Shown here in pieces: positions 26,967 to 38,911 of a stretch of 52,602 nt of DNA; position 1 is the first letter of the stretch; every line of letters begins with the position of its first letter. The translations under genes were made by a program, and so were the position numbers. The notes beneath the pieces are model-generated. The model did no database searches and was not told the DNA's origin. It saw only the letters and a list, made by a program, of their open reading frames with translations. The DNA is from Methylococcaceae bacterium TMED69. GTDB taxonomy: Bacteria; Pseudomonadota; Gammaproteobacteria; Ga0077536. The DNA lies in contig NHDW01000006.1 in NCBI GenBank assembly GCA_002170535.1, forward strand, positions 199,983 to 252,584, in the 5' to 3' direction.

Positions 26967-27227
26967 CTAATATCTTTTGTTTTTATATTGATTAGGCTGT
27001 ATAACATCTTCTCTTTTAGGAAATTTGTCGCCTAATCTTGGACTAAGATCCTTGCTTTTTGGCTCTATCTCTTTTTTGATCTCTTCCGTTATCTTTCTGT
27101 AAGTAAACATTCCACCTTTCACTACTGCAAAAGCAGCAAGATATATCATAAAGAACAGAAGACATGTTAGAAATATAACTAACACGACCGGTATAATTGG
27201 TTCCCACATATTAATATCTGTATTCAT
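26967..27227 (-). CDS. Small membrane protein
   Basis: [34 protein letters not shown]. Confidence 0.55.
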
Positions 27228-28515
27228 CTGACTTATACGGTCCGAAAATAGGAACATTAATGTATTCTGCTTGGTGAGGCTTTAATGTTTCTAATTTTGC
27301 GTTTATATGATTTAAGTGAAGAGCTGCCACTTCTTCATCCAATGTTTTTGGCAAGACGTAAACCTTGTTTTCGTAATTTTTTGAATTGTGAAACATTTCA
27401 ATTTGGGCCAAAACTTGATTTGTAAAAGAGCAGGACATTACAAAGCTTGGATGACCTGTTGCGCATCCTAAGTTCACTAGTCTTCCTTCTGCTAATAAAA
27501 TTATGTTTTTTCCGGCTACCTCATAGCAGTCGACTTGAGGCTTAATATTTGTTTTTTCGCAATGCGCGTCCAGCCAGGCAACATCAATCTCGTTATCAAA
27601 GTGTCCGATGTTACAAACAATAGTGTTGTCATTCATTTCGCAAAAATGTTCATCTCTGACCACGTCTCGATTTCCTGTAGCTGTTACCACAATGTTTGCT
27701 TCTTTAATTGCGTCTGTCATTCTCATAACCTGAAAGCCATCCATGGCAGCCTGTAGGGCGCAGATCGGATCAATCTCTGTTACAATAACTCTACAACCGG
27801 CTGAAGCAAGCGATGCTGCAGAACCTTTTCCAACATCTCCATATCCTGCAACGACAGCAACCTTACCAGCCATCATGATATCTGTTGCTCTACGAATGGC
27901 ATCTACACAAGATTCCTTGCAGCCATACTTGTTGTCAAATTTTGATTTTGTGACAGAATCATTAACGTTTATTGCGGGAAAAGGAAGAATTTTATCACTC
28001 TCAAATTCTCTTAACCTTAATACTCCAGTCGTAGTCTCTTCTGTTACGCCAATAATATCTCCGCAAATTTCTGGATATTTCTCGATAAGGTGCTTTGTTA
28101 AATCCCCACCATCATCTAATATCATGTTTGGACTAGTCCAATTACCTTCGTGGTTATCAAACTTAATAACTTCGTCTAGGCACCGTTCATAATCATCCTC
28201 TGACATTCCTTTCCAAGCAAAAACAGGAATGTGCTTATTTGCTGTATATGCCGCAGCATGATCTTGGGTTGAAAATATATTGCATGTCATCCAGCGGACA
28301 TCTGCTCCAAGTTCAACAAGGGTGTCAATTAAAACTGCGGTTTGAATTGTCATATGTAAGCAGCCGGCGATCTTTGCACCTTTTAAAGGTTTATCAGCAC
28401 CATATTTCTCTTTTAGAGCTATTAAACCAGGCATTTCAGATTCTGCTAACAAAACTTCTTTTGCTCCCCATTCTGATAGTTTTATATCTTTAATTTTGTA
28501 GTCTTTAAAATCCAT
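27211..28515 (-). CDS. ahcY: S-adenosylhomocysteine hydrolase
   Basis: [34 protein letters not shown], full length 434 aa. Confidence 0.95.
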
Positions 28516-28518
28516 TTT

Positions 28519-31500
28519 TTACTCCTGTTCTAAATGGCTTCTGTATTTTTTAAAAAGTTCATTTCTTTTCTGTAGATCATCTAAATATTCTTTTGGAAGC
28601 TTGGTGATGCCAAAATATTTAGATTCAGAGCTTGCAAAATACCATCCACATATTGCTGCTTTTGGTATCATTGTTAAACCATCTGTTAGTTTAACTTCGT
28701 TTTTTATTCCAAGCCAATCTACAATTTTAATTTTTTGAGTGTGATCCGGGCAAGCTGGGTATCCAGGAGCAGGACGGATTCCTTTGTAAGATTCTGATAT
28801 TAAATCTTTGTTATCAAAGTGTTCCTCGCTTTCAATATATTTCCAGTGTTTTATTCGGACTTGTTGGTGCAACCACTCTGCTGTTGCCTCGGCAAACCTG
28901 TCACCAAGAGATTGAACCATAATGTTTCTATAATCATCTTGCTCGTTTTTGAATTCTTTCGCTTTTTCATCTATTCCGTTTACCCAAATTGCAAATGTTC
29001 CAAGCCAATCTTCTTCGTGTAAAAAATCACTCAAGCTCATATTTTTTGTAGACGATTTTTTTTGCGGCTGGCGTAAAAAATTGAATGTTTTTTCTTTGCC
29101 CTCCCTGTAAACGGTTACGTCCTCGTTGTTCTTCTTACATCTATCAATTGAAAATGAATACGAAATTGAAACTGTTTTCGACAGTTCGTCAATCATTCTA
29201 TTCGCGTCTTCTAATAAGTTTATTCCAACTTCCTCAGAAAGCTGCTTTGGCTTTAGTCCCCAAGTCATTGCAAACGGAACCCAGTCAATATAATCTCTTA
29301 TTTCTTCGATGCTGGCCACGTCACGGTTTATTCCAGTGGATGCTGGTTTGACAGCTTCAGACTCTAGGCGATACCGATTACCGCGAGAAATCTCTAAAGG
29401 AAAGTATTTTCTATTATTAGGCTTTCTTGAATTTCTAATCTTTTCATACTTCTTTATGATTTCTTTAAAAGCTTCGTCGTTTGTGAGAACATTATTTACT
29501 TCAGATACTGCAACGCTAGCGTTTCTAATATACACAGTGTTCTTGTATTTCGGAGCAATCCTTGTAGCAGTATGGACCTTTGATGTCGTTGCTCCGCCTA
29601 TCAATAAAGGAACTGGATAGTTTTCTTTTTCGAGCGCTGCTGCAACTTTTACCATTTCGTCTAGACTAGGAGTAATAAGCCCACTTAACCCGATCGCATC
29701 AACTTTATGACTTATTGCCTCTTCGATTATTTTTTCTGTTGGTACCATAACTCCTAAATCTATAACTTCATATCCGTTGCACTGAAGAACAACACCAACA
29801 ATATTCTTTCCAATATCGTGGACATCCCCTTTTACAGTAGCCATTAATATTTTCCCTCGAGACGCTGACCCTCCATCTTTTTCCATATATGGCTCTAACC
29901 AAGCTACGGCTTTTTTCATAACTCGGGCTGATTTAACTACCTGAGGCAGAAACATTTTTCCAGACCCAAAAAGATCTCCAACTATGTTCATGCCGTCCAT
30001 TAGCGGACCTTCAACTATCTCTATGGCATTAGGATTTTTATTGTAACACTCCTCAACATCTTCTAAAATATATCTGTCAATTCCATTTACCAGAGCGTGT
30101 TCTATTCTTTTCGCGGGTGATTCTGCTCTCCACTCTTCGTTTGTTTTCCTTTCTCCAGATTTTTTACCACTGGTTTCTTGTGCTAATTCTAGCAAGAGTG
30201 AGCTTGCGTCTGGGTTTTTGTTTAGGATTGCATCCTCTACTATTTTTCTGTGTCCCTTGTCAATGCTTTCGTATATTGTTAATTGCCCCGCATTGACTAT
30301 TGCCATATCAAGACCAGCTTTCACGGCATGATACAAGAAAACAGAGTGCATTATTTCCCTTACATAAGGATTTCCTCTAAAAGAGAAAGATAGGTTGGAC
30401 AAACCTCCTGACACTTTGGCTCCTGGAAGTTGTTTCTTTATCCACTCTGTTGCGTTAATAAAGTCTACAGCATAATTGTCGTGTTCTGATATTCCTGTTG
30501 CAATTGCAAATATATTTGGATCAAATATAATGTCGCTTGGAGCAATTCCGTTTTCTACCAATAGCCAATACGCTCTAGAGCATATCTCTTTTTTTCTTTC
30601 GAGGCTGTCCGCTTGCCCACTTTCATCAAAAGCCATTACTACAAAAGCGTGGCCGCATGAGACGATTTCTTTTGCCTGTTCTAGAAAACTTTGTTCTCCC
30701 TCTTTTAAAGAAATTGAATTTACAATTCCCCTCCCCTGGAGCCATCTCATGCATGTTCTTAAAATATCCCATTTAGAAGAATCTACCATAATTGGAACAC
30801 GAGATATCTCTGGTTCAGATGCTATTAATTTTATAAAGTTTAGCATCTCCTCCTTTGAATCAAGAAGTCCGTCATCCATGTTGATGTCTATTATTTGCGC
30901 GCCATTGGCTATCTGTCTTTTCGCTATCTGCAAGGCATCGTCATACCTTTTTTCCTTGATACATTTTCTAAACCTTGATGAGCCAGTAACATTTGTTCTT
31001 TCGCCAATGTTGATGAAATTTTTTCCATCGCAGGAATATTCCTCTAAACCAGATAGCTTTAAGGTTTTTTCAAAAGGAACGCGAGTTGATTTTGGCTGCA
31101 TCTTTTTTACTGTCTTTGCAATTTTCGAAATGTGTTCAGGAGTAGTTCCACAGCAGCCTCCAATAATGTTTAAACCACTGTTTTTAGCCATTTTCCTAAT
31201 CATAGCCGCCATTTCATCGGGAGACTGGTCGTATTCTCCTAGCTCATTGGGCAAACCAGCGTTTGGATGTGCTGAAATGGCACATGAGCTTACTTCTGAT
31301 AACCTGGAGACATATGGTGCCATCTGTTCTGTACCTAGAGCGCAATTTAGACCAACCGACACTGGGTTTGCATGTTTGACGGATTGCCAAAATGCCTCTA
31401 CAGTCTGACCAGAAAGCGTCCTTCCAGATGCATCAACTATGGTTCCTGAAATCATAAGAGGAATTGTTTTTGAAATACTTCTAACTGCTTCAATTGCGGC

Positions 31501-32013
31501 TTTTGCGTTCAGAGTATCAAATATTGTTTCAATCATTATTAGGTCACAACCACCCTTTATTAGGTTTTCAGCTGCGGCTCTATAGCTTTTAAAAAGACCA
31601 TTATATGTAATATTTCTAAAAGCGGGATCCAGCACATCTGGAGACATTGACAGGGTCCTTGATGTCGGCCCTAGTACTCCTGCAACCAACGCATCGTATT
31701 TGTTAGCAATAGTTCTTGCCAACTTTGCGGCTTTGTAATTAAGCAAATCTATTGCTTCGTTACTTAGGTCATAATCTTCTGCAGAAACATAATTCGCGTT
31801 AAAAGTATTTGTTTCAATGATATCTGCACCAGCTTTTAAATAGTCCTCGTGAATAGACTTTATTACCTCTGGGCAAGTCAAACAAAGTATATCATTGAAT
31901 CCCTCACAGTTTTTTTCCTCGTACGAGAAAAAGGACGGATCAACTTTTCTCTTTTGTATCTCCGTTCCCATTGCTCCATCGAGTATGTAAATCTTTTTAT
32001 TAAAATCTACCAT
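28519..32013 (-). CDS. metH: Cobalamin-dependent methionine synthase
   Basis: [55 protein letters not shown]; start trimmed to MVDFNKK. Confidence 0.95.
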
Positions 32014-32459
32014 TCTTCTTTTTGACCAACCCAATCTTGAAACTTGTCTTCTCCACCCCTTATTCCCCAGTCTGAGTCGACAGTAAGCTTTGATGATATT
32101 CCACCTCTCGGGTTGCATACTATTACCAGCCTGAGTCGAGTCGGTTCGTATGCGCTCATCATGTCATCGTAAATCACGTTAATGATTCTTTCGTATGAAT
32201 AAATCTGTGACCTAAAGGCAAAGAAGTATTCTTTGAGAGATTTAAGCTCAATAACTTTGTCACCTGGATAAAACGTGATATACAACTGTGCAAAATCTGG
32301 CTGGGCCCTAACCCCTTCAAAAGTAAGTTCCGGAACCTTCATTTTTATTTCATAGGCTTCCCTAGAAGGATTTGGAATTGATTTAAGAATGTGCCTATTT
32401 TTTTGCCAATTTCTTTTCCGTCTATTTCTGCCAATTGGAGGCGTTGTTTCTTCGCTCAT
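32007..32459 (-). CDS. QueF-like (T-fold) protein
   Basis: [32 protein letters not shown]...NPRGGIS; the usual CPVTG Cys is replaced. Confidence 0.7.
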
Positions 32460-32460
32460 T

Positions 32461-33444
32461 TTAACCCCATGTTTGGTTAGTGCCCATGTGACCCCAAGCG
32501 GCGGTCTGTAAGTATTTAGGCTTTTTTAAGTCTAGATGATTAATGATTCCCTGAGGGCTTAGATCATAATCTGTTACGGGAAACTCTTCCCCGTTAACTA
32601 TCATTGTTGCTTCTACCGGTTGGTCATGTCCAATGGCGTACGCAAGATAAACATATACTTGGTTTCCTTCAGGTCTACGATTTAGAGTCTGCAATTTATC
32701 TACGGCAATTCGTCTAGCCATGTAAGCTGCTGATCGATCAACCTTTGTAGGATCCTTACCACTAAATGCTCCTCCCCCTACTGGAATTGCTGGTCCGTAA
32801 TTGTCGATTACGATCTTTCTGCCAGTTAATCCGGCGTCGGCGTCGAATCCTCCAAGATTCCAATCGCCTGCGGGGTTAGCAAAAATCTTTGTTTCCGATG
32901 TATCAAAACTAACGGTGCGGAGCCAACCCTTTATGTATCCTTCCAAGTCTTTTGTTTTTGCCATTTGGAAACTAGCAACCACTGAATCGATTTTATTTCC
33001 GCATAGTGTTACCTGTGTTTTTCCGTCGAAGGGATAAACCTTATAAAGCTGCTTACAAAGCTGGCGCGCTAAATAAAGTTCGTTTGGCACCATCTCTGGA
33101 TTGTCATCGCATGCATATCCGACCATGATTCCTTGATCTCCTGCGCCGCCTGTATCAACTCCTTGAGAGATAAAGTTACTCTGTTTTACAACGTTAACAT
33201 TAACCTTGACAGGTTTTCCATAGGTCTCTCTTACTATTTGCTCTATTGGCAAATCAGCATTAGTAGTTATTTCCCCAGTTACGTTTATTTCTCCGTGACC
33301 TCCCATGGTTTCTACTGCAACCCTAGAGTCGGGATCAAAACCCAAACAGTGGTCAAGTATCGCATCCGAAATAGTGTCACAAATTTTATCCGGATGTTTG
33401 GGAGTTACACATTCTGCAGTTTTGTATTTTCTACTTATCATCAT
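32461..33444 (-). CDS. metK: S-adenosylmethionine synthetase
   Basis: TAECVTPKHPDKICDTISDAILD; GAGDQGIMVGYA; GGGAFSGKDPTKVDRSAAY. Confidence 0.95.
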   Translation of the reverse strand: MMISRKYKTAECVTPKHPDKICDTISDAILDHCLGFDPDSRVAVETMGGHGEINVTGEITTNADLPIEQIVRETYGKPVKVNVNVVKQSNFISQGVDTGGAGDQGIMVGYACDDNPEMVPNELYLARQLCKQLYKVYPFDGKTQVTLCGNKIDSVVASFQMAKTKDLEGYIKGWLRTVSFDTSETKIFANPAGDWNLGGFDADAGLTGRKIVIDNYGPAIPVGGGAFSGKDPTKVDRSAAYMARRIAVDKLQTLNRRPEGNQVYVYLAYAIGHDQPVEATMIVNGEEFPVTDYDLSPQGIINHLDLKKPKYLQTAAWGHMGTNQTWG

Positions 33445-33533
33445 TAATAATTTCCCCATCCGCAGTCACAAGGGTCACATTCGCAAGCCTCGCACGGCTG
33501 GAATAGTTTTTTAATATAGTTTATAATTCTCAT
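33444..33533 (-). CDS. 29-aa Cys-rich microprotein
   Basis: Own translation MRIINYIKKLFQPCEACECDPCDCGWGNY; TAATG overlap with metK. Confidence 0.55.
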   Translation of the reverse strand: MRIINYIKKLFQPCEACECDPCDCGWGNY

Positions 33534-37346: not shown

Positions 37347-37661
37347 TTAACCTATTGATTTGATTTCTGCACAGATTTTTTGATATTTTTTAATGTTTTC
37401 CATCATTTCTGGAATGACTTTATCTAGACCTTTTGGAGTTAGAATCCATTTACCTCTTTTTGGACTCTGCCAATATTTATTTGGGTATCCTCGATGGTTT
37501 TTTCTGCCGTAAAAATAACTTACAGCCCAACCTCGCTCAGAAAACCCATCTAAATTTCCGTGTTTGCTTAAATACAAAGCTCGACGGATATCTGCCCCAC
37601 AACAACCTGGAAAACAAAAAATATAAGTCGCAATAAAATTAATATTATTTGTTTTTTTCAT
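37347..37661 (-). CDS. Hypothetical protein
   Basis: MKKTNNINFIATYIFCFPGCCGADIRRALYLSKHG. Confidence 0.5.
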   Translation of the reverse strand: MKKTNNINFIATYIFCFPGCCGADIRRALYLSKHGNLDGFSERGWAVSYFYGRKNHRGYPNKYWQSPKRGKWILTPKGLDKVIPEMMENIKKYQKICAEIKSIG

Positions 37662-38568
37662 GCAGCCCTCTGTATCTAAGAACCGCCAGTTCTTTGGCTT
37701 TTGCTTCGATGACAACATCGATATCTAGACCGTGAGGATTAATGTAACCAGAAACATATTTTGAATGTGCACGGAAAACCGCTTTTGGGTTGTCAACCTG
37801 AGCCGTCTCGGAGTAGTGTGTGCACGGTTTGTGCCCTGCCCACGTTGAAGCAGCTAGATGAAGCGCCGTTTTTTCATCATCCTGACCAGGATGACACTGG
37901 TGATGATGATAATCGAACACAATAGGAATTCCGGAGCGTGAGTAAAATAGCTCATATAATTCTCTAGTTGAATAAAGGTTTGGACGATCATCGTTCTCCA
38001 GTGTAAGACGAGAAAGAACGGCGTTAGAAAGCCTAGAAGAGTTACTAAGCCAACGATCAGCAGCAGCCTGTTTGTCACCGTAAGCACCTCCTACATGAAT
38101 GTTGATCTTGGCCATTGGAGACCTAGGTTGGTGCATATAGTCCATAATCTTACCGTGTATTTCCAATTCGTGTAACGATTTTTCAACAACGCTTTGGTTT
38201 TTTGCGGCCAGCACTGTAAAAGCGCCGGGGTGAAACGACAGCCGAATGTCGTTTTCAATAGCAAACTTGCCGCACTGGTCTAGCAGAGACTTGCATGCAT
38301 TCCAGTTAGGTAGATCTTCTAACCTGTACTCTGAACACCATGGAGCCATAGAGGATGACATTCTGTATACAGATATATTGTTTTTGACATTCCATGGAAG
38401 AATGCGCCTAACTGCTAGTAAGTTTTGTTCGAATAGCTCGCCGACGTGCGGCAAACCTTTTTTGAGAAAAGTTGCTTTTCGGCAAGTTCTGCCGACAATT
38501 GCTTTTTCTGTTTCTGCTAGTGTCATGTTGATACACGCGTAGCCAAGATTAGTGGATCCTGTTTTCAT
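37645..38568 (-). CDS. UV damage endonuclease UvdE-like
   Basis: MKTGSTNLGYACINMTL...FHPGAFTVLA...INIHVGGAYGDK...LTLENDD...VFDYHHHQCHPG. Confidence 0.88.
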   Translation of the reverse strand: MKTGSTNLGYACINMTLAETEKAIVGRTCRKATFLKKGLPHVGELFEQNLLAVRRILPWNVKNNISVYRMSSSMAPWCSEYRLEDLPNWNACKSLLDQCGKFAIENDIRLSFHPGAFTVLAAKNQSVVEKSLHELEIHGKIMDYMHQPRSPMAKINIHVGGAYGDKQAAADRWLSNSSRLSNAVLSRLTLENDDRPNLYSTRELYELFYSRSGIPIVFDYHHHQCHPGQDDEKTALHLAASTWAGHKPCTHYSETAQVDNPKAVFRAHSKYVSGYINPHGLDIDVVIEAKAKELAVLRYRGLHEKNK

Positions 38569-38662
38569 TAATACTCCTGAGGTTGTATACTTATTATATA
38601 GAAATATTCTATATTTTATAATATAATTTATAAGTTGTTTAGCTACACAGGTTTTGATAAAA

Positions 38663-38911
38663 ATGCCATACAAACAAAAAGGCTCAAAAAAATGCACGCA
38701 ATCTGATGGTACTAAAGGTTCATACAAGACCGTCAAAAAGGACGGAACCACGCGTTGTTATAAATCAAAAAAACAATACGATGCCGCAATGGCATGGGCT
38801 CACGAGTCAGAAGACAAATCAGATGAACAGACTGATAAATTCATCGCTTTACTCGAAGAGATAAATCTACGAGTTTTTATTAGAAACATTTTAAGAATCG
38901 AGAAAAGTTAA
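38663..38911 (+). CDS. Small basic protein with C-terminal tag-like helix
   Basis: MPYKQKGSKKCTQSDG...ends LRVFIRNILRIEKS. Confidence 0.6.
   Translation: MPYKQKGSKKCTQSDGTKGSYKTVKKDGTTRCYKSKKQYDAAMAWAHESEDKSDEQTDKFIALLEEINLRVFIRNILRIEKS

Follow-up and report, generated by a model that had tools for sequence, protein, structure and literature searches.

QueF enzymes use NADPH to reduce the exocyclic carbon on C7 of the 7-deazaguanine preQ0. The closest described relative of the protein considered here is the unimodular QueF of B. subtilis (PDB 4F8B/4FGC; TIGR03139), in which functions have been assigned to Cys55, Glu97 and the QueF motif (PMC5372742). The family treated here, which we call QueFL, shares with that enzyme a T-fold, a similar length, the motif E(S/L)KSxKxY, the equivalents of Glu97 and of the QPDF Asp62, and the PRGG sequence. 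However, QueFL lacks Cys55-Pro56 and His96/Cys99, has acquired invariant residues of its own, is linked to metH instead of que genes and forms a separate clade. The archaeal QueF-L (archaeosine synthase, PDB 5JYX) is likewise a T-fold (rmsd 2.0), but at about 11% identity; it forms a thioimide, as the title of the 5JYX entry states, whereas QueFL, without that Cys, has retained the NADPH motif. Members of the QueF superfamily are also borne by the phages Dp-1 and HVTV and by Nanhaivirus phages, but these proteins keep the Cys loop, are encoded beside or near queC, queD, folE or TGT genes and fall outside the QueFL clade. dPreQ1 has been found in the DNA of Dp-1 and HVTV-1 (PMC6884629).

The enzymes whose reaction we predict for QueFL are built quite differently. 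MetF (MTHFR; PF02219), a (beta-alpha)8 barrel whose ping-pong mechanism involves FAD (PMC11094777), would share with QueFL both its reaction and its niche as a partner of metH, but the two are unrelated in fold and sequence. The flavin-independent mycobacterial MTHFR, Mfr, transfers hydride directly from NAD(P)H (PMC11094777), and the same direct transfer to a 5-iminium is predicted for QueFL; Mfr, on the other hand, is a (beta-alpha)8 barrel that to date has been identified in mycobacteria alone, while QueFL is a T-fold of about 150 aa. Our literature searches returned nothing relevant on a known QueF-type or alternative MetF, and the literature searched made no mention of QueF together with methyltetrahydrofolate.

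The gene lies in a stretch of 52,602 nucleotides (the window), which corresponds to positions 199983–252584 of contig C5 (305,838 bp) in the metagenome-assembled genome (MAG) of Methylococcaceae bacterium TMED69. The end of C5 repeats its start over 25.66 kb, with 60 differing positions, and C5 thus represents the whole genome, circularly permuted and about 280,180 bp long, of a giant marine phage that was binned with bacterial contigs. In the window, queFL occupies 32007–32459 on the minus strand, has an ATG start and encodes 150 aa. Upstream, on the same strand, is metK (32461–33459), encoding a short, phage-type S-adenosylmethionine synthetase of 332 aa with three Pfam MetK domains (phrog_1569), which scores 245.6 bits against TIGR01034, below the cut-off of 309.4. 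Downstream are metH (28519–32013, minus strand), encoding a cobalamin-dependent methionine synthase of 1164 aa (TIGR02082, 1395 bits, cut-off 1011; the mechanical ORF begins further upstream, at 32118), and ahcY (27211–28515, minus strand), encoding an S-adenosylhomocysteine hydrolase of 434 aa (TIGR00936, 599 bits, cut-off 498). The genes are tightly spaced: metK ends at 32461, 1 nt upstream of queFL; the first 7 nt of metH overlap the 3' end of queFL; and only 3 nt lie between metH and ahcY. An earlier reading made from the sequence only had placed the gene in a SAM operon, and this location is borne out.

The bacterial MAG, at about 2 Mb, thus either contains a jumbo phage as a contaminant or is paired with one. 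Its contig C1 encodes a canonical QueF with the sequence CLCPATGQPDF, which falls outside the QueFL clade, and the derivation of queFL from the host queF was rejected for that reason. The host MAG also encodes its own QueC, TGT and MetF, while FolA was not found in it; in the phage, no MetF was found.

The phage carries a varied complement of other genes. Proteins encoded between about 10 and 50 kb of the window include a chaperonin Cpn60, a peptide deformylase, a sigma-70-like factor, an FKBP and a fatty-acid hydroxylase, and a UvdE endonuclease is encoded at 37645–38751 (minus strand). A tmRNA with the tag peptide ANNNYHYESARLAA is found at about 151716–152106 of C5 on the minus strand (L026:11716-12106). 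The region from about 101 to 168 kb of C5 encodes three kinds of protein that are known as a set from the chromosomes of bacteria (SpoVR, PrkA kinase and DUF444), as well as adenylosuccinate synthetase and IMPDH-family proteins. Further folate and pterin genes, for ThyX, a ThyA-family protein and a pterin-4a-carbinolamine dehydratase, lie at about 250–280 kb of C5, along with those for SOD and a glutamine-synthetase-family protein.

The queFL product is a genuine QueF homologue, by its matches to Pfam QueF (E 6.9e-21, 74.7 bits, cut-off 27.3), to TIGR03139 ("preQ(1) synthase"; 90.8 bits, cut-off 86.9) and to the sequences of PDB 4fgc and 4f8b (E about 1e-15). No other Pfam family, MetF (PF02219) included, matched at E ≤ 1. 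The sequence-only reading had also called the catalytic Cys missing, correctly: in the canonical T-S-L-C-P-x-T-G-Q-P-D-F stretch, the protein is shorter by one residue and has EGVRAQPDF opposite CPxTGQPDF, with no Cys at the thioimide position. Its only Cys, C115, is located before NPRGG and is invariant among close phage relatives, but is Phe in several members of the group L068–L082 and in L155 and L160, and is thus not a relocated catalytic nucleophile. Another candidate was found among the first 15 viral relatives, two of which (L004 and L015) have the loop EGCRGQPDF, with a Cys two residues closer to QPDF than Cys55; it is private to these two contigs, and none of the others among the 15 whose loop was read has a loop Cys.

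When 47 QueFL sequences, drawn from phages and from bacteria of several phyla, are set against 11 canonical unimodular QueFs, it becomes clear what has been kept and what has been replaced. Both groups have the NADPH motif residues E71, K73, S74, K76 and Y78 (the motif, E(S/L)K(S/A)hK(L/Y)(Y/F/W) in QueF, reads ELKSLKEY here, the position after the second K not being restricted to L or Y in QueFL), as well as Q53-P54-D55-F56, E90 and R118-G119-G120. E90 corresponds to Glu97 of the B. subtilis enzyme, the substrate anchor, and D55 to Asp62. The Ser-x-Cys-Pro of QueF, however, has become Phe-x-gap-Gly, His96 has become Tyr, and the position of the thioimide Cys55 is a gap or Gly across all 47 aligned sequences. 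Residues that are newly invariant in QueFL are E37, R91, R108, R110, D128-S129-D130-W131, G135-G136 and W143. An AlphaFold model of the protein (mean pLDDT 83) is a T-fold, and its best VIA fold match is 4F8B/4FGC (Z 16.9), followed by QueF-L (Z 14.5), GTP cyclohydrolase I and dihydroneopterin aldolase, as judged from a monomer model of an enzyme type whose active site is intersubunit. GTP cyclohydrolase I (FolE) and dihydroneopterin aldolase (FolB) are pterin-pathway T-folds; matches to them are expected of any T-fold and show no function.

QueFL is not a phage-specific oddity, a notion that was rejected when 85,000 species genomes were scanned and at least 525 confirmed bacterial relatives came to light, in addition to close relatives in about 34 viral contigs. 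The best 80 of these bacterial relatives, at 59–66% identity, were kept; the organisms that encode the relatives are Bacteroidota, Syntrophorhabdus and other Delta groups, Nitrospirota, Pseudomonadales and Halanaerobiales. The Cys at the catalytic position is missing in every relative that was read. In the phylogeny, QueFL separates from canonical QueFs with support of 99/97, long branches being a caveat; it is a monophyletic, strongly conserved family shared by many phages and by bacteria of several phyla. Its members score 82–96 bits against TIGR03139, the NCBI QueF-II model, straddling the cut-off of 86.9 (a canonical QueF scores 154), and part of the family is therefore likely to have been named preQ(1) synthase automatically. 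A separate protein of about 210–240 aa gives a weak match to the QueF profile (59 positions, 22–25 bits; L018, G030, G034, G046, G053) and is probably another T-fold protein, GTP cyclohydrolase I.

The neighborhoods of queFL vary, but return to the same area of metabolism. Of the 80 bacterial loci that were kept, 15 have queFL between the halves of a split metH or beside metH, as do the Crocinitomix-family loci that were fetched. One half binds homocysteine while the other holds the folate, B12 and activation portions; queFL lies between these halves, or beside one of them, in 14 of the 80 loci, from Crocinitomix (Crocinitomicaceae), Marinoscillum, Cyclobacteriaceae and Flammeovirgaceae. In addition, in Halanaerobiales (Bacillota), queFL follows by 6 bp the gene for an 813-aa MetH-like protein with homocysteine-methyltransferase, methyl-THF-binding and cobalamin domains, and MetF was not found in these organisms. 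About 22 Chitinophagaceae-type loci have queFL adjoining a cystathionine-synthase-type PLP gene and/or homoserine dehydrogenase, 9 Delta-type loci have it directly after thyX, and in Marinoscillum metF, metH and queFL share one operon. Phages show metK-queFL-metH(-ahcY) (the window, L001, L003), queFL-ferredoxin-ahcY (L005, L013) and queFL with ahcY and a divergent metK (L070, L072, L073); other phage neighbors are exonuclease, ferredoxin and glycosyltransferase genes. Given this variety in bacteria and phages, the link to methyl metabolism recurs across several independent arrangements. A gene for a 4Fe-4S ferredoxin of 77–88 aa directly follows queFL in six viral contigs (L002, L004, L005, L012, L013, L015), and this protein may be a redox partner of QueFL.

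What does QueFL do? In our judgment it is probably a flavin-free, NADPH-dependent 5,10-methylene-THF reductase that would supply 5-methyl-THF to MetH. The homology, the loss of Cys, the retention of the other motifs, the operon contexts, the statistics of MetF displacement and the absence of preQ0 genes were observed directly; which substrate is bound, what reaction is catalyzed and what the individual residues do are predictions from sequence, context and co-occurrence. The invariant residues for NADPH and for the pterin or purine edge support this prediction, as do the recurrent metH and methionine operons in unrelated lineages. By overlay of the pyrimidine rings, C7 of preQ0 would coincide with N5 of the pterin, and the nitrile carbon with the methylene carbon on N5. 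The known methylene-pterin reductases act via a 5-iminium cation (PMC11094777). In the proposed mechanism, the T-fold pocket would grip the 2-amino-4-oxo-pyrimidine edge of the pterin via the invariant E90, D55 or another acid would protonate N10 and thereby let the methylene group open into the N5=CH2+ iminium, and NADPH, bound by the ELKSLKxY and RGG motifs that QueFL has kept, would donate a hydride to the iminium carbon. The family-specific R91, R108 and R110 could hold the glutamyl tail. Since reduction of an iminium needs no covalent thioimide, the Cys would be dispensable, while the Glu, the Asp and the NADPH site would stay. In the phage, QueFL, MetH, MetK and AhcY together would make a complete methyl cycle during infection.

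If QueFL makes methyl-THF, it could displace MetF, and co-occurrence points in this direction. MetF (PF02219) is missing in 12 of 40 QueFL genomes: in 6 of the 8 with a metH-flanked QueFL versus 6 of the 32 others (p 0.005). In a Bacteroidota-wide sample QueFL was present in just 2 of 296 genomes, too rare for a phylum-wide test, and the test was therefore done at the family level, on 150 genomes of the Crocinitomix family, of which 15 have QueFL, 22 lack MetF and 12 lack MetH. MetF is missing in 12 of the 15 genomes with QueFL versus 10 of the 135 without it, and all 15 keep MetH. When only genomes with MetH are counted, the figures are 12 of 15 versus 4 of 123 (Fisher p 1.2e-11), a p-value that overstates the number of independent MetF losses, since the genomes are related within the family. 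Several of the 12 genomes with QueFL and no MetF are MAGs; however, one is nearly a single contig of 4.37 Mb and another is the isolate Crocinitomix algicola, so that incompleteness is not the general cause of the absence. QueFL without MetF is seen separately in Crocinitomicaceae, Flammeovirgaceae/Cyclobacteriaceae and Halanaerobiales, and the same pattern occurs in a Flavobacteriales group in which queFL lies beside a riboflavin-synthase-like gene. The loss of MetF with retention of MetH where QueFL is present supports displacement. On the other hand, the coexistence of MetF in the remaining 28 of the 40 genomes, the metF in the Marinoscillum operon and the host MAG's own MetF all count against a methylene-THF reductase.

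The alternatives to a methylene-THF reductase share parts of this evidence, the leading ones being an accessory role with MetH and a role like that of dihydrofolate reductase (DHFR). QueFL might serve another MetH-coupled step, as a pterin-binding accessory or as a reductant that keeps MetH active. Reactivation of MetH uses low-potential electrons, and the ferredoxin gene that follows queFL in several phages would fit such a role, as would the repeated proximity to metH in spite of a coexisting MetF, even within one operon in Marinoscillum. We nevertheless regard this as unlikely, for it does not account for the specific loss of MetF in genomes that have QueFL and retain MetH, and many queFL genes are away from metH, in thyX, methionine-pathway or glycosyltransferase contexts.

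A DHFR-like enzyme, reducing a ring C=N of dihydrofolate or a dihydropterin in place of FolA in organisms with ThyX, would account for the 9 loci in which thyX adjoins queFL, and would be served by the same NADPH and pterin-edge residues. Neither the host MAG nor any of the 7 Delta/Syntrophorhabdus-type QueFL genomes that were searched yielded a FolA; these Delta genomes, which have MetF and queFL beside thyX, fit a DHFR-like role and count against a methylene-THF reductase. However, organisms with ThyX often lack FolA anyway, and the metH context would have no explanation. Of the 15 Crocinitomix-family genomes with QueFL, most of which lack MetF, 14 have FolA; this argues against a DHFR role there, and replacement of FolA as the general function of QueFL is not supported in Crocinitomicaceae. 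Overall, we consider a DHFR-like role quite improbable.

A preQ0-binding or preQ0-reducing protein, acting in 7-deazaguanine modification of phage DNA or host tRNA, is the function that overall similarity to QueF would suggest, with TIGR03139 scores around the cut-off and both the Glu97 equivalent and the NADPH motif kept. The sequence-only reading had raised the DNA variant and proposed a search for the corresponding genes elsewhere. Neither the phage contig nor any of 15 related viral records gave a match to QueC or TGT above the family cut-off, where absence means no match at that threshold in the assembly searched, most IMG/VR viral records being fragments, and where that of DpdA is judged solely by the Pfam TGT model. 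The 7-deazaguanine DNA modification was consequently dropped; the known phage QueFs, moreover, keep the Cys and adjoin folE, queC or TGT. Among bacteria, QueC is absent in 35 of 47 QueFL genomes, which supports a substrate other than preQ0, and five genomes with QueC have a separate bimodular QueF. Five Delta genomes, on the other hand, have QueC and QueFL as their sole QueF relative, a finding that is against, or unexplained by, a methylene-THF reductase, and the host MAG has QueC and TGT. A role in preQ0 metabolism is nonetheless very unlikely: the Cys that is needed for the QueF thioimide, and is used in QueF-L, is gone family-wide, and queFL lies away from queuosine genes. Least of all is QueFL a decayed, non-enzymatic QueF or a passive hitch-hiker, which the loss of a catalytic residue might suggest but which has almost no probability in view of the tight operons, the 37 invariant positions among 47 sequences and the strong purifying selection on queFL (pN 0.06–0.15, pS 0.84–0.97 with saturated synonymous sites, pN/pS about 0.06–0.17).

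The proposal of a repurposed T-fold enzyme, which the sequence-only reading had put forward, is thus well supported by a monophyletic, conserved and Cys-free family tied to methionine and SAM genes. For the predicted methyl-folate-making reductase, QueFL is a concrete and easily tested candidate. On balance, we lean toward a still wider view, in which QueFL would be a fourth type of methylene-tetrahydropterin reductase, unrelated to the others by descent: a flavin-free, NADPH-dependent T-fold, derived from QueF by loss of the thioimide Cys, that has displaced MetF in several lineages and gives jumbo phages a self-contained methyl cycle with MetH, MetK and AhcY. If true, this would be the first such reductase type on a T-fold, and a nitrile reductase would have turned into a folate reductase through the loss of its covalent nucleophile. 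It would also mean that the QueF-II annotation captures a different enzyme, which should serve as a warning, and that jumbo phages reprogram one-carbon and SAM metabolism.
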